Below the pieces are notes generated by a model. The model was not told the DNA's origin, ran no database searches, and was given only the letters and a program-made list of their open reading frames with translations. From positions 1 to 64,000 of the forward strand of contig NZ_LFQU01000019.1 of NCBI RefSeq assembly GCF_001275135.1: a DNA stretch of 64,000 nt. Direction: 5' to 3'. Source of the stretch: Xylanibacter rarus. GTDB taxonomy: Bacteria; Bacteroidota; Bacteroidia; Bacteroidales; Bacteroidaceae. A program made the position numbers and the translations under genes. Below, one piece after another: positions 8,366-40,647 of this stretch (positions are counted from its first letter, which is position 1; the number at the start of each line of letters is the position of its first letter).

Positions 8366-9304
8366 GTGCGAATACGTCTTTTAACCATATTAACAGTGAT
8401 GATGCTGGCCTCGGCAAGGGTCAGCGCGCAGTATGATGCGTCTTTCAGTCACTACTGGGACCTTGAGCCTTACTATAACCCGGGCTCGGTGGGCAAGGCC
8501 TCAAAGCTAAACATTGCGGCGGTGTATGCCCTAAGCTTTGCAGGATTCGAGAACAATCCGCGCTCAATGTACGTGGGCGCCGACATGCCGCTGTATTTCC
8601 TTAAGAACTATCACGGCGTGGGCCTCTCGCTCTTCAACGACCAGATAGGTCTGTTCACACACCAGCGCCTGGCGCTGCAGTATGCCTACAAGCACAAGCT
8701 CTTCGGCGGAATGATAAGTGCGGGCGTACAGCTGGGGCTGCTCAGCGAGGGCTTCGACGGCTCGAAGCTCGACATTGAAGACTCGAGCGACCCGGCCTTC
8801 ACCACATCAGACGTCAACGGAAGCGCCTTCGACGTGGGCTTCGGACTTTATTACACGCACGGCCCCTGGTATGTGGGCGTGTCGGCCCAGCACCTCACCG
8901 CTCCGCTGGTTGAACTGGGCGAAACAAACGAATTGCAGATAGATCCTACATTTTATTTGACCGGCGGATACAATATTAAACTAAGAAATCCGTTTCTTAC
9001 AATACATCCGTCTGTGCTGCTGCGCACCGACGGGGTGGCCTGGAGAGGCGACGTGTCGGGCCGGCTGGTCTATACAAACGACAAGAAAATGCTCTACGGG
9101 GGCGTGTCTTACAGCCCCACAAACTCGGTTACGGTGCTGGTGGGCGGCAGCTTCCACGGCATCAACATAGGCTACAGCTATGAGGTGTACACCTCGGCCA
9201 TCAACATGGGCAACGGCAGCCACGAGCTTTTCATCGGATATCAGACTACACTCAACCTTTATAAAAAAGGAAAGAATAAACATAAAAGCGTGAGAATATT
9301 ATAA
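8366..9304 (+). CDS. porP: PorP/SprF family type IX secretion membrane protein
   Basis: An outer-membrane beta-barrel protein of the T9SS. After the signal peptide it begins AQYDASFSHYWDLEPYYNPGSVG, the classical PorP/SprF opening. The C-terminal part is a series of short Gly/Tyr-rich strands. No ATG gives a complete signal peptide. The open frame runs back to a TTG at 8327, but that codon sits in the terminator, so I prefer the GTG at 8366 (MRIRLLTILTVMMLASARVSAQ-type leader). It is the first gene of porP-K-L-M-N, 3 bp ahead of porK. In related systems PorP/SprF proteins bind PorK-N or attach to surface substrates. Confidence 0.88.
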   Translation: MRIRLLTILTVMMLASARVSAQYDASFSHYWDLEPYYNPGSVGKASKLNIAAVYALSFAGFENNPRSMYVGADMPLYFLKNYHGVGLSLFNDQIGLFTHQRLALQYAYKHKLFGGMISAGVQLGLLSEGFDGSKLDIEDSSDPAFTTSDVNGSAFDVGFGLYYTHGPWYVGVSAQHLTAPLVELGETNELQIDPTFYLTGGYNIKLRNPFLTIHPSVLLRTDGVAWRGDVSGRLVYTNDKKMLYGGVSYSPTNSVTVLVGGSFHGINIGYSYEVYTSAINMGNGSHELFIGYQTTLNLYKKGKNKHKSVRIL

Positions 9305-33358: not shown

Positions 33359-35116
33359 ATGGCAAAAAAGACAAAGTCGTTTTCACATATAGAGGCGCAG
33401 GATGCGCTCGAGAAGTTAAATGAAAGCAGACCTTCAGGAGAAGAGCTGATATATAGTCTTCTCCGTATATTTTGTGGTTACGGTGATGGCAATATAAAAC
33501 GCATCCGCGACGGAGTGGGCAATAAGGCAAAAGACGGACGAACTGTGCTTATACCAAATCTGATAGCATATCGCCCGAAAGGTGAGCTTGACTTCTATGA
33601 TGAGATAAAGGATATGCAGGCAGACAAAAAGATAATAAAGCATACGCCTCGTCTTTTTGTAGTAAGCGACGGAAGTAAAATTGTGGCTCTCGACCCTAAA
33701 GAGCAAGATATATATGAAAACGAAGTAGGGTTGTTGTGGAAAGATTTTGAGTTTTTTTGCCCGCTTGCCGGTATAGAGAAAATAAGAAATGTTGAAGAAG
33801 CTGAAGCTGATATAAAGTCAGCGGAGCTTATGGCTAAGATATTTGATGAGATAAGGCGTCATAATGATATTAAGGATAAAGAAGAGATGCATAATCTTAA
33901 TATCTTTATGTCGCGCCTCTTGTTCTGCTATTTTGCTGAAGACACGAACCTGTTTCCTGAACAGAATCTTTTTACAAATGCCATAATACAGTTTACTGCT
34001 GAAGACGGACACGACCTTGCAGAGTTTATCGACAGGGCTTTTTTTGCAATGTCTACCGACAATCCTGACGTACGTAATACTTTGCCTAAGCAGTTTTCTG
34101 TTTTTCCATACGTCAACGGCGGATTGTTTAAAGAACGCATACCCATACCAGTGTTGAGCCGTCGTACACGTGTGCTTATGATTAAGTGTGGTGATTTTGA
34201 TTGGAAAGACATTAATCCCGACATATTCGGCTCTATGATTCAGGCTGTCGTAACTCCAGAGATGCGTGCCGGGCTGGGTATGCATTATACGTCTGTGCCT
34301 AACATTATGAAACTTATCTGTCCGTTGTTTCTCGATGATTTGCGTGATGAATTTACTGTGGCGAAAGACACAAAAGACATAAAGCGTTTGCGCAGACTGT
34401 TGGCAAGGCTTGGAAAAATAAAGTTTTTCGATCCGGCTTGTGGTAGTGGCAACTTCCTTATCGTTACATATAAGCGTATTCGTGAACTTGAAATTGAGAT
34501 ATGGGAAGTTTTGCGCAAACTTGGAGAATCAGAACTGCCGATGTCTAATATAAGTCTGCAACAGTTTTATGGCATCGAGATTGACGATTTTGCATGCGAT
34601 ACGGCTACGCTTTCTCTTTGGTTAGCTGAACATCAGATGAATAATAAGTTTTATTCTGCATTTGGTGTCCATGTTGACGCTTTACCTCTTCGTCCGAGCG
34701 GACACATTGTGTGCCAGAATGCGTGTCGTGTTGATTGGAATACAGTTTGTCCGCACACGCCAGATGAGGAAGTTTATGTTATGGGGAATCCTCCGTATTT
34801 AGGGAGTAGGCGACAAAACAAAGAACAGAAAACAGACATGGAGATTTTATTCAAGGAAAATTTTGGTGAATTAGATTATATTTCATGTTGGTTTTTTGCA
34901 GGCTCAAATTATATTAAAAACACCAAAGGTAAATATGCTTTTGTATCAACAAATTCAATATGCCAAGGATTACAGATGTCAATATTGTGGAAAAGGATTG
35001 TAGCCAATAATGAAGCTATCAATTTTGCATATACTTCATTCAAATGGTCTAATAATGCAAGATTGAATGCTGCTGTAACTGTTATTATTGTTGGTGTATG
35101 TAATGAAAAAATATAA
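33359..35116 (+). CDS. MmeI-like DNA methyltransferase, N-terminal part (frameshifted)
   Basis: It encodes residues 1-585 of an MmeI-family (type IIG-like) adenine-N6 methyltransferase. An N-terminal MmeI_N region without a clear PD-(D/E)XK nuclease triad comes first. A helical spacer follows (MSRLLFCYFAEDTNLF, FPYVNGGLF, HYTS). The methylase core has SAM motif DPACGSGNF (358-366), GIEIDDFACDTATLSLWLAEHQMN, and the catalytic NPPY at 477-480. The frame ends in a stop at 35114 while homology continues one base back in frame (from 35107). It is the first gene of the island operon. GC falls from about 45% around 34400 to about 28% around 35000. Confidence 0.85.
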   Translation: MAKKTKSFSHIEAQDALEKLNESRPSGEELIYSLLRIFCGYGDGNIKRIRDGVGNKAKDGRTVLIPNLIAYRPKGELDFYDEIKDMQADKKIIKHTPRLFVVSDGSKIVALDPKEQDIYENEVGLLWKDFEFFCPLAGIEKIRNVEEAEADIKSAELMAKIFDEIRRHNDIKDKEEMHNLNIFMSRLLFCYFAEDTNLFPEQNLFTNAIIQFTAEDGHDLAEFIDRAFFAMSTDNPDVRNTLPKQFSVFPYVNGGLFKERIPIPVLSRRTRVLMIKCGDFDWKDINPDIFGSMIQAVVTPEMRAGLGMHYTSVPNIMKLICPLFLDDLRDEFTVAKDTKDIKRLRRLLARLGKIKFFDPACGSGNFLIVTYKRIRELEIEIWEVLRKLGESELPMSNISLQQFYGIEIDDFACDTATLSLWLAEHQMNNKFYSAFGVHVDALPLRPSGHIVCQNACRVDWNTVCPHTPDEEVYVMGNPPYLGSRRQNKEQKTDMEILFKENFGELDYISCWFFAGSNYIKNTKGKYAFVSTNSICQGLQMSILWKRIVANNEAINFAYTSFKWSNNARLNAAVTVIIVGVCNEKI

Positions 35117-35238
35117 ATAAGAAAATAATTTATAATAATGGACATTTAAAATATGTAAAAAATATTTCTCCTTTATTAATTGATGCACCAACAGTTTTTG
35201 TTGAAAGTGTTTCAAAACCTCTATGTAAAGTACCTGGT

Positions 35239-36033
35239 ATGAATTTTGGAAACATGCCTGCAGATGGGGGATTTTTATTGTTTTCATCGAATGAAAAAAA
35301 TGATTTCATTCAGAAAGAACCTCAAAGTTCCGCTTATTTTCGACAAATATATGGGTCTGATGAATTTATTAATGGGAGAGAACGCTGGTGTTTGTGGTTG
35401 TATGGCAAAAAAATAGATGATTTTGAACAAATGCCTTTAATAAAAGAACGTATAGATAATGTACGTAAAATCAGATTGAGATCTTCACGCCCACATTTAG
35501 CAGAAACTCCGCATCTTTTTGCTCAGATAACGCAACCATTAGGTATTCCTTTTATTATAATTCCAAGTGTCTCTTCTGAACGACGTGAATACATTCCTAT
35601 GGGGTATTTAGATAGTTCTAAGTTGGCAACTAATCTATGTATGGTAATTGGTACTAAGGATATTTTTCTTTTTGCTGTTCTTACCAGTAAGATGCATATG
35701 GTATGGGTTAAGACTGTGGGGGGAAGATTAAAGACTGATTACCGTTATTCTGCACAGCTTTGTTATAATACTTTCCCTTTTCCTGCTATCAGCGAATCGC
35801 AGAAATCGGAGTTGGAAGAATTGGCACAAGAGGTTTTGGATATTCGTGACGAACATTTTGACATGACACTTGGCGAAATGTATAACCCAGAAACAATGCC
35901 TGACGATTTAAAAGATGTACACCGTCGGCTTGACCTCGCCGTTGAGCGTTGCTACCGCCTTGAACCTTTCACCTCGGACGAAGAACGCCTTGAATGTTTG
36001 TTTAATTTGTATGTTAAAATGACGAAGAAATGA
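35239..36033 (+). CDS. MmeI-like DNA methyltransferase, C-terminal part (target recognition)
   Basis: It is the remaining 264 residues, plus about 44 upstream codons open from 35107 without a start, so this is a fragment and not a separate gene. It carries the target-recognition domain (FGNMPADGGFLLFSS, SDEFINGRERWCLWLYG) and the C-terminal helical domain (YRYSAQLCYNTFPFPAIS, then RLDLAVERCYRLEPF). The target-recognition part is very AT-rich and the last 250 bases return to normal. Its stop codon overlaps the ATG of the next gene (ATGA). Confidence 0.8.
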   Translation: MNFGNMPADGGFLLFSSNEKNDFIQKEPQSSAYFRQIYGSDEFINGRERWCLWLYGKKIDDFEQMPLIKERIDNVRKIRLRSSRPHLAETPHLFAQITQPLGIPFIIIPSVSSERREYIPMGYLDSSKLATNLCMVIGTKDIFLFAVLTSKMHMVWVKTVGGRLKTDYRYSAQLCYNTFPFPAISESQKSELEELAQEVLDIRDEHFDMTLGEMYNPETMPDDLKDVHRRLDLAVERCYRLEPFTSDEERLECLFNLYVKMTKK

Positions 36034-37039
36034 AGAATAAAGATACACTTATTTATATTGATGACATTTTTTCGGAAGAAAAAAGAAAAGCAGTTTATGC
36101 ATGTTCCATGATTGTTCAAATGAATCAATTGGTTCGCATGTATTTTCTCGATCACATATCTTAAAACCAATAAGTAAAGACCTTAATATATACCAATTTA
36201 ATCAAAGGCCATTAATATTCCTTAGTAATAAGCATGATGTCTTTTGTTATAAATTAGAACCTATTAGAAACGCTTTTATATTTAAAGGTTTTTGTCAAAA
36301 ACATGATAATGATTTATTTAAATCTATTGAACCGCACAATGGATTTGTCGATTGGTCACAGAAAAAGTCTCAATATTTATTAAGTTATCGAACAATTTGT
36401 CGGGAAATTTATGCTAATAATGTTGTTATAAATGTTATTGATACAATTTCTAAAGATAATTATGCAAAACGGCAATCAATCAATCTTTTTAGTTTAGAAA
36501 AACAATTAATAACATTACAATATACAAGAGAAAATTTATTTTACTATAAATCTTTGTTGGAAAAAGATATTCTTAAGGAAGATTTTTCAAGTATAAGTTT
36601 TAAATATATTGAGTTACCTTTTCAATTTGACCTTTGTGTTTCTGCCCCAATCTACATTGATTATGGTAATGGTCTATGTTTTAATTCTGATTGTCAAGAA
36701 TTAAATATTGTAAATATATTTCCTTATTATGGCAAAACAATTATACTTTTTGGCTATTTACAAAAGTTTAATAATCAATGGATGGATGGTATCTTGCCTA
36801 AGTTCAAATCACCATATCCACATATTGTAAGTTCTGCTTTTGTAGATATACTTTATCGGGCAGAATTTAATGCTATGTCCCCATCTTTATATGATTCTCT
36901 TGATAAAGACTTATTAAATGAATTCTTTAGAACGTGGAAAAAGGAAGTAAATAATTTTTCTGATGATATGCAAGAGGTATCACATTTATTTTATTATACT
37001 TTAAATGAGCTTATGCCAAAATCATGGAAAGATTTATAG
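36030..37039 (+). CDS. HNH-like protein with SH motif, frameshifted
   Basis: The ATG at 36030 overlaps the methyltransferase stop and starts KNKDTLIYIDDIFSEEKRKAVYA. A one-base shift near 36094 is needed to join the frame that begins at 36101 and carries CSNESIGSHVFSRSHIL. With that shift the joined sequence reads CFHDCSNESIGSHV, a Cys-x3-Cys...SH metal-binding motif seen in a family of hypothetical HNH-type proteins. The rest, about 300 residues, I do not recognise. GC is about 27%, far below the flanking genes. It may be a nuclease subunit of the island or an inserted passenger. Function is unproven. Confidence 0.55.
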
Positions 37040-37124
37040 AAATATCAATATGAAAATTGAATATATTGTTTTTACGAGAGCACAATAGTATTTATTATCA
37101 AGATACAAAGATGATGATAATTTT

Positions 37125-37373
37125 ATGGATTTAGAAATAAACGATAAAAATTTGTATCTGTTGTTACCGGGTAAAGTTAGTAGGATGGTGCAAATTTATT
37201 CGCATGAATATAATATTCCTATCATAGAGGCTTTGAAAAGATTTTATCTTTCAGATACTTACAAAAAATTAGCAGATGAAACAACAAAATTATGGCATTA
37301 TGGTGCTGTTGCTTTGTATCAAGAATTTATTGACGAACTAAAAAATAAAGAAAACGAAAATGGCAATAAATAA
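37125..37373 (+). CDS. Small hypothetical protein of the island
   Basis: An 82-aa protein beginning DLEINDKNLYLLLPGKVSRMV, with SDTYKKLADETTKLWHYGAVALYQEF near the C-terminus. It slightly resembles the small companions of DUF3791/DUF3990 modules, but I would not assign it. It overlaps the helicase start by 14 bp, so it is probably translated with it. In the same frame upstream a 12-codon frame (37050-37088) ends in TAG, so the gene may once have been longer. GC is low, like the previous gene. Confidence 0.5.
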   Translation: MDLEINDKNLYLLLPGKVSRMVQIYSHEYNIPIIEALKRFYLSDTYKKLADETTKLWHYGAVALYQEFIDELKNKENENGNK

Positions 37374-39339
37374 TCTTGTAAACATCCAATATGCCCAAAC
37401 TGGAGAATCGAGCGCAACCAACGAAATGGGAATGCGCGAGATGCAGGCAATGGTTTATGAACAACGTCAGCGTCAATATCTGTTGGTGAAAGCTCCGCCG
37501 GCATCAGGCAAGAGCCGCGCCATGATGTTTGTAGCACTCGACAAGTTGGCTAATCAGGGAATAAGGAAAGTGATAGTGTCGGTACCTGAAAAGTCTATCG
37601 GACGTTCGTTTAAAGACACAAAACTGAAAGATTTTGGATTTTTTGAAGATTGGAAGGTAGCACCTTATTATAATTTGTGCGATTCGCTTGGTTCGGAAAC
37701 TTCAAAGCGTAAGAAGGTGCATGAGTTTTTGTTGCCGGCAACATCGGCAAAGATTCTTGTTTGCACACACAGCACATTGCGTAACGCAATGAAAGACGTG
37801 CCTAACGAGCAGCTTAATGACGTATTCTTCGGTATAGACGAATTTCATCATACTTCTGCAGATGCGAACAATAATCTCGGAGAACTTATACGCAGACTGC
37901 TTAATGAAACGTCTGCACATGTATTGGCAATGACAGGAAGCTACTTCCGTGGCGACGCCATACCTGTAATGCGTCCTGAAGATGAAGAGAAATTCCAACC
38001 CTCTATCAACTATAATTATTACCAACAGTTGAGCGGATACAAGTATCTGAAGAGCCTCGGCATTGGTTATCAGTTCTTTACAGGTAAATATATTACGGCA
38101 ATTCCTGAAACGCTCGATACGACAAAGAAGACACTGATACATATACCTAACGTAAATTCAAAGACTTCGTATGCGTTGAAGTATGATGAAGTTGCAGACA
38201 TAATAAAATGTATTGGTGAAATAGTAGAAGAAGATTATGAACACCATATTTACCATGTGCGAACTTCAGACGGACGCATTCTTAAAGTCGGCGACCTTGT
38301 GGAAGATGAACAGTCGCGTAGGGATGCATTGCAGGCTTATCTGCAACGTATGAATTCACGTGACGCTCTTGACATACTTATTGCTCTTGGAACAGCCAAA
38401 GAAGGTTTCGACTGGGCATGGTGCGAGTGTTGTATAACTATCGGCATACGGTCTTCTTTAACTGAAATAGTTCAGATTATTGGACGTTGCACCCGCGACT
38501 GTGAAGGAAAGACGCATGCACAGTTTATTAATCTGATACCTTGCCCGGACGCTGCACAGGATGATGTTTCTATGGCAGTAAACGATTTTCTTAAAGCTAT
38601 TTCTGCTTCATTGCTTATGGAACAGGTGATGGCTCCACGCTGGACATTCAAGACGAAACGTGACGACGAGGATGAAGATAAAGAGGATAACAAAATAGGC
38701 GGTAAAAACAACAAACACACGATTGAAGTAAAAGGTCTGCCCGTTCTTTCAGAAAGGGCACAAGCAATATTGGACAACGACCTTGACACTTTGATTGCAT
38801 CAGCACTTTCAGATAAGAAAATCCGTGACGCAATAATCGGTACTGAAAAGAATGAAATGATAACACAGGTGTATTTCCCTAAATTAATATCCGAGAAATA
38901 TAAGTTTCTGAATCAAGAGGAAGCTGAGGACCTGTCTAAATATGCAGTTTTGACGATTGCGACACAGGGAGAGGATATAAAGACTGATGACAGTGGAAAT
39001 AAGTTTATAAGACTTGCTAACCGTTTTGTTAATCTGGATGATTTGTCTATAAATCTTATTGATTCGATAAATCCGTTCCAGCGTGCATACGAAATTCTGT
39101 CAAGGTCATTGACTCCTGAGGTTCTTCGCACGATACAATATGAGATTGAATCAACCCGTGAAGATATGACAAAAGAAGAAGCTGTAATTCTGTTTAAAAA
39201 GTATTTGCCTAAATGGCGTGAAGAACATGACGGAAAAGTGCCGACAATAAATGAAGCAGACGCTAACGGCAGAAGAATAGCTTTGGCCATTGAATACATA
39301 CGTAAACTTAAACAGCAGTCACTTGCAAATAAAAGATGA
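37360..39339 (+). CDS. DEAD/DEAH-box helicase of the island
   Basis: A 659-aa superfamily 2 helicase. The motifs are Walker A APPASGKS (residues 45-52), Walker B/motif II IDEFHH (159-164), motif III TGSYF, motif V TAKEGFDW (345-352) and motif VI QIIGRCTRD (372-380). A C-terminal extension of about 280 residues is rich in charged residues (a DEDEDKEDN stretch near 425-435), with no domain I recognise. GC is about 50% at the start, unlike the two genes before it. It overlaps the next gene by 4 bp (ATGA), so the nuclease is coupled to it. Confidence 0.85.
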   Translation: MAINNLVNIQYAQTGESSATNEMGMREMQAMVYEQRQRQYLLVKAPPASGKSRAMMFVALDKLANQGIRKVIVSVPEKSIGRSFKDTKLKDFGFFEDWKVAPYYNLCDSLGSETSKRKKVHEFLLPATSAKILVCTHSTLRNAMKDVPNEQLNDVFFGIDEFHHTSADANNNLGELIRRLLNETSAHVLAMTGSYFRGDAIPVMRPEDEEKFQPSINYNYYQQLSGYKYLKSLGIGYQFFTGKYITAIPETLDTTKKTLIHIPNVNSKTSYALKYDEVADIIKCIGEIVEEDYEHHIYHVRTSDGRILKVGDLVEDEQSRRDALQAYLQRMNSRDALDILIALGTAKEGFDWAWCECCITIGIRSSLTEIVQIIGRCTRDCEGKTHAQFINLIPCPDAAQDDVSMAVNDFLKAISASLLMEQVMAPRWTFKTKRDDEDEDKEDNKIGGKNNKHTIEVKGLPVLSERAQAILDNDLDTLIASALSDKKIRDAIIGTEKNEMITQVYFPKLISEKYKFLNQEEAEDLSKYAVLTIATQGEDIKTDDSGNKFIRLANRFVNLDDLSINLIDSINPFQRAYEILSRSLTPEVLRTIQYEIESTREDMTKEEAVILFKKYLPKWREEHDGKVPTINEADANGRRIALAIEYIRKLKQQSLANKR

Positions 39340-40529
39340 TAAACTGGGACGAAGAACTTGAACAAATATTTGAAGATCCACTTTTTGCTGATGTTACGGC
39401 TCCAAGAAAGAAAGTGACTTCAAGCGACCGGCTTATTGCCGGATTTCAGAAAATATTAGAGTTTGTTGAAACAAACAACCGATTACCACAGAATTGTGAT
39501 AATCGTGAGGAAAGAACACTATATAATCAGCTTAAAGGTATTCTTAAAGACCCTAAGAAGGTAGAGAAATGTAAGCCTTACGATACCGCCAATATATTAA
39601 GCGAACGGAACGAAGATGAAATTTCTGATTCGGAAAAGAACTGTAAAAGTGAAACGGAACTTCTTGACGAAATTTTTAATGACCCAATATTTGATGGCAT
39701 AAGTTCTGATGATAATTCTTTGTTCGAACTTCCGGATTATATGAAAAAGCGTCTTGAAGAGCGTAAGGAAGCTGACTATGTTGCTCAAAGGGTGAAATGT
39801 GAAGATTTTGATAAGTTTGAGGCTGGATTTAAAGAAGTTCATGCTGGTCTGAAATCAGGTAAATATAGATTGATTAAATTCAAGGAAGCTCATATTGCAC
39901 AAGGGAGATACTTCTTGGAAGATGGAATATTGGTTTATATTGCAGGGCTTGATCAAATAGAAAAGAATAGACACGGAAGGAAAGATAGCCGTACCCGATG
40001 TGTATATGAAAATGGAATGGAATCGGGAATTTACATGCAGACCTTATGTAAAAATCTTTATAGTACAGGCTATACAATACAAAACGTTTCGGATGTTGAA
40101 GAAGATTATCTGGAAAAGAAATTTTCAATAAATTCAAATGATGTGGAAAGTGGTATAATCTATGTGCTGCGTTCTTTGTCAAAAGATCCTGAAATAGCCT
40201 CAATAAAGAATCTTTATAAGATTGGTTTTACTACGACGACAGTAGATGCACGCATAGCCAATGCAAAGAATGAGCCGACATATCTTTGTGCAGACGTTGA
40301 AGTTGTTGAGATATGGAGAGTTTATAATGTAAAAAGTTCAGTCTTTGAAGCACTTATACATAAACTCTTTGATAATGTTCAGTTGCAGGTCGTTGTTGAT
40401 GGGAAAAAGCCTAAAGAATGGTTTGTCGTTCCGTTCAATGTTATTGAACAAGCGGTTAAATATATTATTAGTGGAGTCCCTATTGCATACGATGAAACTG
40501 TGCAGCAAATAGTTGTTTTAAAAGAATAA
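39336..40529 (+). CDS. GIY-YIG / T5orf172-type nuclease protein of the island
   Basis: A 397-aa protein. Its C-terminal domain (about 273-368) has GIIYVLRS, LYKIGFTT (294-300), Arg306, EALIHKLF (Glu338) and EWFVVPF, the signature of the T5orf172/MUG113 branch of GIY-YIG nucleases. The N-terminal part has two copies of an acidic motif: LEQIFEDPLFADV (8-20) and LDEIFNDPIFDGI (110-122). A helicase-associated-like helical region lies between the two copies. The nuclease probably supplies the cleavage activity that the methyltransferase lacks. It is the last gene before the inverted repeat at 40550-40647. Confidence 0.8.
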   Translation: MINWDEELEQIFEDPLFADVTAPRKKVTSSDRLIAGFQKILEFVETNNRLPQNCDNREERTLYNQLKGILKDPKKVEKCKPYDTANILSERNEDEISDSEKNCKSETELLDEIFNDPIFDGISSDDNSLFELPDYMKKRLEERKEADYVAQRVKCEDFDKFEAGFKEVHAGLKSGKYRLIKFKEAHIAQGRYFLEDGILVYIAGLDQIEKNRHGRKDSRTRCVYENGMESGIYMQTLCKNLYSTGYTIQNVSDVEEDYLEKKFSINSNDVESGIIYVLRSLSKDPEIASIKNLYKIGFTTTTVDARIANAKNEPTYLCADVEVVEIWRVYNVKSSVFEALIHKLFDNVQLQVVVDGKKPKEWFVVPFNVIEQAVKYIISGVPIAYDETVQQIVVLKE

Positions 40530-40549: not shown

Positions 40550-40647
40550 AAGACTAAAACTTTCTTGTTGACCATAATCCATTGCCGTTACGCAATATGC
40601 GGTGCGCACGACATTCTTATTATTGTCAACAAAAAAGTTTTAGTCTT
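40550..40647. repeat. Long inverted repeat at the right edge of the island
   Basis: The 23-bp arms at 40550-40572 and 40625-40647 match at 22 positions (AAGACTAAAAC...TTGTTGAC). They flank a 52-nt loop. It begins 21 bp after the last island gene and 37 bp before the thioesterase stop. It may be a bidirectional terminator or the end of a mobile segment. No matching arm was found at the left edge. Confidence 0.75.

Follow-up and report, generated by a model that had tools for sequence, protein, structure and literature searches.

A probable DnmA-YeeB-YeeC-family restriction-modification operon with an apparently frame-broken methyltransferase and putative passenger genes in Xylanibacter rarus

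The window analysed here is a stretch of 64,000 nucleotides from Xylanibacter rarus (assembly GCF_001275135.1, positions 1 to 64,000 of NZ_LFQU01000019.1, which is contig C19 of an 85-contig, 3.79-Mb genome). It contains an operon at 33359-40529, all of whose genes lie on the + strand. We consider it likely that this locus is a three-gene restriction-modification operon of the DnmA-YeeB-YeeC family, resembling Type I systems with the parts rearranged, that this copy is most likely inactive, and that two further genes within it are cargo passengers. The operon begins with a dnmA/yeeA-like methyltransferase in two open reading frames (ORFs), 33359-35116 (585 amino acids, aa) and 35239-36033 (264 aa). 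There follow an HNH-like protein gene (36030-37039), a small protein gene (37125-37373), a yeeB-like superfamily 2 (SF2) helicase/translocase gene (37360-39339, 659 aa) and a yeeC-like gene for a T5orf172/GIY-YIG protein (39336-40529, 397 aa). Its G+C content is 0.26-0.43 in 500-bp steps, against a window mean of 0.48. An initial annotation, made from the letters of the DNA, had described five genes on one strand with overlapping start and stop codons. The common strand and the overlaps stand (ATG 36030 runs into the methyltransferase stop codon, 36031-36033; the helicase gene starts at 37360, within the last 14 bp of the small ORF, whose end is at 37373; and the GIY-YIG gene starts with ATG 39336 in a 4-bp overlap with the end of the helicase gene), but the methyltransferase proved to be two ORFs in different frames.

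The six ORFs of the operon were compared with Pfam, PADLOC and NCBIfam. In Pfam, the ORF at 33359-35116 has the MmeI_N (E 4e-10), helicase-spacer (MmeI_hel, E 6.1e-21) and methylase (MmeI_Mtase, E 7.9e-99) domains and ends at a frame change, and the ORF at 35239-36033, in the other frame, has the target-recognition (MmeI_TRD, E 9.8e-72) and C-terminal (MmeI_C, E 3.7e-25) domains. Both ORFs match the same PADLOC model, PDLC03598 (912 positions), the first over 29-595 and the second over 645-910. The motifs DPACGSGNF and NPPY are both present, and the residues of DPACG.G.F and NPP are invariant in an alignment of 14 methyltransferases that includes that of the window. MmeI, a Type IIL enzyme (PDB 5hr4), is homologous to the window methyltransferase over nearly its full length, recognition and C-terminal domains included; a profile of the 14 methyltransferases matches it nearly full-length with an E-value of 1.3e-281. 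The window protein differs from MmeI in its lack of the nuclease triad. In the window protein, T, R and K stand opposite residues D70, E80 and K82 of MmeI (numbering counted along the 5hr4 alignment), which we take to be the catalytic nuclease triad of that enzyme, and the relatives do not conserve the triad either. Because the triad is absent, the methyltransferase is unlikely to be the cutting enzyme, a role that would most likely fall to the separate GIY-YIG protein; relative to MmeI, a helicase has also been added. The REase_MTase_IIG model of PADLOC scores the ORF at 33359-35116 with an E-value of 2.6e-177 despite the absent triad. A Type IIL/IIG (MmeI-type) enzyme, with a PD-ExK nuclease and a methylase in one chain, was considered as an identity for the locus and rejected on the absence of that triad.

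The helicase is recognised in Pfam by DEAD (2.1e-09) and ResIII (3.8e-09), and the GIY-YIG protein by T5orf172 (E 8.9e-14) and MUG113 (4.1e-12). The helicase motifs GKS, DEFHH, TGS and QIIGRxTR, intact in the window, are invariant in 13 of 13 aligned helicases (window included), and the catalytic-type residues of the GIY-YIG protein are likewise intact, with G273, Y276, K295-I296-G297, R306, E338 and E361 (window numbering) invariant in 14 of 14 aligned proteins. These family matches support the MmeI-type methyltransferase, SF2 helicase and T5orf172 protein of the initial annotation, and the alignment to MmeI supports its observation of the core methylase motifs without a clear nuclease triad. 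The best PADLOC match of the helicase is only PbeA, at 32 bits. Among solved structures, no close relative of the helicase was found, its profile giving only DHX58 over 59 positions (E 1.5e-4), and the GIY-YIG protein gave chance-level matches only. In many loci of the same family, namely L061-L063, L066, L067, L069-L071, L074 and L075 (L numbers denote the loci described below), the GIY-YIG protein is made up of an N-terminal ORF of about 75-95 aa and a separate ORF of 300-430 aa. Over 11 loci, the identities of the helicase and the GIY-YIG protein correlate with r 0.92 (Mantel p 0.0001), and over the same loci those of the helicase correlate with the methylase part at r 0.61 and with the recognition part at r 0.58. 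The weaker correlation with the methyltransferase is consistent with exchange of methyltransferases.

Type I restriction-modification systems (HsdR/M/S) comprise a recognition/methylation complex, an SF2 translocase and cleavage that depends on the methylase complex, and the logic proposed here for the window is alike in all three respects. The MmeI-like protein, which unites target recognition with an N6-methyladenine (m6A) methylase, would mark host sites. On unmarked incoming DNA, the same protein would recruit or license the SF2 helicase, which would then travel along the DNA and bring to it the cutting enzyme, the separate T5orf172/GIY-YIG protein. The sequences show the domains, the loss of the triad, the intact helicase and GIY-YIG motifs and the conserved gene order; that the proteins form a complex, translocate and cleave is inferred. 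The helicase and GIY-YIG motifs are compatible with ATP-driven translocation and cleavage in the style of Type I. Unlike in Type I, the window has specificity and methylase in one protein, and its nuclease would be a separate GIY-YIG protein and not a domain of HsdR.

Used as the query against 84,980 species genomes, the helicase found 25 loci. The helicase was also matched in 22 of 399 genomes of the family and in 13 of 395 of the phylum, the own genome being included in both counts, three of the 13 matching only at E 4e-4 to 9e-4 and one over only 61 residues. The helicase is widespread: it matches 263 plasmid records, with 80% or more of its length covered in 153; INPHARED phages gave only two matches, both partial, and IMG/VR viral contigs gave 26 loci (L105-L130), one of them only a fragment. 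Our table of 85 loci comprises the window, 25 loci from the species scan, 20 from the family, six from the phylum, seven plasmid records out of the 263, and 26 from viral contigs. L060 was joined with L091 as G032, the same contig is counted twice for L020/L093 and for L022/L073, and the 85 loci amount to 64 clusters at 90% helicase identity. Since all of them were found through the helicase, the neighbouring genes count as independent evidence. A methyltransferase match lies upstream of the helicase in 65 of the 66 loci with at least 3 kb of upstream sequence, the miss being G032. Of the 85 loci, 82 have a GIY-YIG match no more than 412 bp downstream of the helicase, the exceptions being L127 (at a contig end), L119 and L130. 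L097 has a match to a methyltransferase fragment only, and in L098 the methyltransferase gene is cut by IS26. The three core genes occur together in Bacteroidota, Pseudomonadota, Bacillota, Actinomycetota and Cyanobacteriota, and their grouping is therefore not due to chance. The trio stands in the same order on plasmids of Niallia, Arthrobacter, Vibrio, Sinorhizobium and Synechococcus, back to back in the case of Niallia (Bacillaceae), and on a 7.7-kb Pediococcus plasmid the core trio are the only genes listed in the incomplete gene table of PLSDB. The neighbourhood is conserved, and the operon is best read, as the initial annotation had proposed, as a restriction-type defence operon with separate parts for recognition/methylation, translocation and cleavage.

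That annotation had also proposed that the system was undescribed, naming an existing description as the finding that would overturn the idea, and here it must be set aside, since the trio is already published as DnmA-YeeB-YeeC. In two papers (PMC7261158, PMC9973331), DnmA-YeeB-YeeC is a conserved cluster that lacks the MmeI nuclease motif and that had earlier been suggested to be Type I-like, Bacillus subtilis DnmA (YeeA) makes m6A at GACGAG, a non-palindromic site, and the helicase and T5orf172 genes are most often at +1 and +2 in the 368 neighbourhoods analysed. The window has in common with this family the gene order, with a triad-less, hence nuclease-less, MmeI-like methyltransferase, an SF2 helicase as the next core gene and a T5orf172/GIY-YIG gene after it, as well as a location in a low-G+C island. 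It differs in its split methyltransferase, in the two cargo genes (1.3 kb) that precede the helicase, and in having a host of the Bacteroidia. The single unbroken methyltransferase ORF of the family is missing in the window, which bears on activity and not on family. Among 14 named control genomes, of which seven match MmeI_Mtase and two match T5orf172, B. subtilis matches both.

The exclusion of BREX and DISARM in the initial annotation withstood comparison, the PADLOC matches for the ORF at 33359-35116 being the best 25 of 41. For BREX, the best PglX match reaches 33.9 bits in PADLOC, against 589.5 for the IIG model, and the NCBIfam PglX model gives 42.9 bits with a cut-off of 500; BrxC and PglZ do not occur among the matches listed for the six operon ORFs. 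For DISARM, DrmMI scores at most 53.1 bits and DrmD at most 17.2 among the PADLOC matches listed, and DrmA, DrmB and DrmC are absent from those listed for the six ORFs.

Several points weigh against the DnmA-YeeB-YeeC reading as stated. Membership was set by domains, order and published description, and not by the B. subtilis sequences. G032 has a helicase and a GIY-YIG gene but, over 17.6 kb of upstream sequence, nothing that matches the methyltransferase, and L119 has no GIY-YIG match within 3 kb downstream of the helicase, so the trio is not strictly obligatory. The frame changes on which the inactivity of the copy turns could be assembly errors. Finally, the B. subtilis trio was without effect on three phages or on transformation, according to PMC9973331 and PMC7261158. 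Deletions of dnmA and yeeB in Vibrio crassostreae raised phage sensitivity for some subclades and had no effect for others, a line of support that comes only through its citation in PMC9973331.

The activity of this copy depends on its methyltransferase. In 35 of the 36 other loci that match both halves, these lie in one ORF, which measures 835-979 aa in the 34 that are complete within their contig; the nearest intact methyltransferases, those of L004 (892 aa) and L002 (893 aa), are single ORFs. As judged from the reading frames, the window methyltransferase is most likely broken between its methylase and target-recognition domains and the copy inactive. Since the broken protein is also the one that recognises the target, an intact helicase and nuclease can be kept without harm. 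The alternative that fares best, and that agrees with the family assignment, is that the copy is intact and active, its frame changes being assembly or homopolymer errors, or being bypassed or reversed by slippage or phase variation; we regard this as a serious possibility and yet as the less probable state. The two frame changes (35106-35240, in the methyltransferase, and 36079-36101, which apparently breaks the HNH-like ORF) are about 1 kb apart, and each is at or beside a six-base A run (starting at 35106 and at 36079), so that assembly error, slippage and true decay are all possible. An active copy would also suit the helicase and GIY-YIG genes, which are open with intact motifs, as if under selection. 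Against it, 29 long ORFs in the rest of the window are open although 14 A or T runs of at least six bases, four of them of at least seven, fall within them, and seven-base runs also occur within the two methyltransferase ORFs without interrupting these. In L003, from a different assembly, the methyltransferase likewise breaks between its methylase and recognition parts (at about 8430-8470), through a separate frame change of its own. No convincing in-frame slippery site for programmed -1 frameshifting was noticed on reading the sequence, a point to which no dedicated test was applied.

Two other readings concern the restriction genes and appear unlikely. By the first, the locus is a relic, an orphan methylase with dead restriction genes, or is kept for nothing. 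The orphan-methylase conclusion was drawn for B. subtilis in PMC9973331, but the window shows the reverse, with the methyltransferase broken and the helicase and GIY-YIG genes open, and the co-divergence of these two across 11 relatives is at odds with their being dead. By the second, to which we would give marginally less credence still, the helicase and GIY-YIG protein form a nuclease that acts on foreign DNA independently of methylation, the methyltransferase being a separable protector. The coupling and co-divergence of helicase and GIY-YIG, tighter than that of either with the methyltransferase, would fit such an arrangement, as would G032 with its lack of a methyltransferase match. In B. 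subtilis, however, loss of dnmA alone caused no growth defect (PMC7261158), from which it follows that YeeB/YeeC spare unmethylated self DNA there.

Turning to the passenger part of the DnmA-YeeB-YeeC reading, the stretch between the methyltransferase and the helicase (36034-37359 in the window) is variable among relatives. We took as the gap the distance between the methyltransferase stop and the first helicase match, and read the contents for part of the gaps. This gap is at least 300 bp in 32 of 68 informative loci and at most 110 bp in the other 36, and the gap between helicase and GIY-YIG gene is at least 300 bp in one of 68. Counted by cluster, the figures are 24 of 53 and one of 53, with 23 discordant clusters against 0 (exact p 2.4e-7). 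Slot ORFs were read in 17 relatives, G032 and two plasmids, and those with matches are all on the operon strand. They include AbiJ_NTD4/PDC-S32 (L002), Gp49 with a helix-turn-helix (HTH) partner, located behind the HNH-like gene (L004), SduA with a Schlafen AlbA_2 protein (L011), a PDDEXK_3 protein with AlbA_2 (L012), TmtA with a HigB-like/HTH-M78 pair (L013), Bro-N with RhuM (L015 and L070), DUF3990 with a PDC-M13 small gene (L057), AlbA_2 (L059), RhuM (L062), a polyvalent-protein kinase (L071), and an AAA_11/AAA_12 helicase (L075); in G032, SIR2, HerA and AlbA_2 precede the helicase. The slot of the Synechococcus plasmid holds a RelE/ParE pair. The slots of L063, L065 and L066 also contain ORFs, and those of L003, one ORF of L020 and that of Sinorhizobium L102 gave no match. 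Besides the window, the start of the first cargo ORF and the methyltransferase stop overlap by 4 bp in L002, L003, L004, L057, L059 and L062. L012 and L015 are 90-95% identical in DNA over core stretches and carry different cargo, which would be the clearest sign of cargo swapping. We tentatively suggest, without holding it to be the probable case, that the trio is a platform with a dedicated internal slot into which co-directional modules are repeatedly swapped, the helicase-nuclease junction remaining closed. Many of these modules would be defence genes, such as SduA, TmtA, SIR2-HerA, the AbiJ-like and Schlafen-like genes, RhuM and pairs of toxin-antitoxin type, with the HNH-like protein and the PDC-M13-type orphan as those of the window. 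The cargo may be translationally coupled to the methyltransferase, co-expressed with it, and available as a back-up if restriction fails. What the gap counts establish is a position bias, not yet a defence-specific site. A published description of a methyltransferase-helicase cargo slot was not found in the limited collection of literature searched; the core trio being already known, the slot is the under-described and newest part of these observations.

The first cargo gene of the window owes its HNH-like label to a Cys/His motif seen by eye, and its G+C content is 0.26. Of the HNH-like gene of the initial annotation there remains a same-strand ORF, without family support (no match in Pfam, PADLOC or NCBIfam, and a best PHROGs E-value of 0.038) and apparently frame-changed near its 5' end. 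ATG 36030 and ATG 36101 are in different frames, and the ORF is open from the latter for 312 aa. It is 54% identical to a 338-aa ORF in the same place in L004, which starts within the 4-bp overlap with the methyltransferase stop and has an N-terminal part that the window ORF lacks. The L004 homologue was matched in four of 393 order-level genomes (the own genome included, and one match at only E 9.7e-4), with no match in viral contigs. Genomes G400 and G767 have relatives of the HNH-like gene. The second cargo gene (82 aa) encodes a small protein that matches PADLOC PDC-M13C at E 2.3e-29. In L057 (1506-3725, - strand), the corresponding small gene comes after and beside a DUF3990 gene (E 1.6e-48), which matches PDC-M13A/B, and runs into the helicase in one frame. 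In the window and in L002, the small gene and the start of the helicase gene have 14 bp in common, and neither locus has a DUF3990 ORF listed. The window gene is therefore only an orphan partner of the PADLOC PDC-M13/DUF3990 pair, no DUF3990 gene having been called there, and is best read as a leftover. Searched by tblastn in 45 other loci, the HNH-like ORF was matched in one (L004) and the small gene in two (L002 and L057). Both are probably passengers in the slot and not system components. It is very improbable that the five genes are instead one undescribed five-part system in which the HNH-like and small proteins are needed effectors, as the overlapping start and stop codons and the tie of the small gene to the helicase start in the window, L002 and L057 might suggest, given the rarity of both genes, the contents of other slots, which are quite different, and the gaps of at most 110 bp, which leave no room for either. 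The exact five-gene set of the initial annotation accordingly dissolves as a unit, with the core occurring alone, and the conservation as neighbours on which it had staked its proposal holds for the core trio and fails for the HNH-like and small genes.

As to the setting, a calcineurin-like phosphoesterase gene lies upstream of the island, and a hexapeptide-repeat protein gene is a downstream neighbour. The phosphoesterase was matched in 39 of 40 same-genus genomes (own genome counted, some matches weak). The trio is without a match in all ten same-genus phosphoesterase regions inspected, two of them shortened by a contig end; in three of the ten the phosphoesterase and hexapeptide genes adjoin, in a relative orientation that differs from that of the window. 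These regions fit an inserted island, an empty site not being proven. An inverted repeat of about 23 bp, noted by eye at 40550-40647 just 3' of the operon, is possibly a terminator or an island edge. The same genome has a second T5orf172 gene at G000:C3:151648-151923.

If the assignment is correct, it has a bearing on how such loci are called. The nuclease-less methyltransferase matches the Type IIG model of PADLOC, so that loci of this kind may be called single-gene Type IIG systems, and on the present reading those calls would become three-gene systems. Should the cargo slot be a general feature, reading between the two core genes would offer a simple route to new defence genes. There is also a published puzzle, that of a conserved trio inactive in B. 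subtilis and reported as active in Vibrio, which the intact plasmid copies could address.

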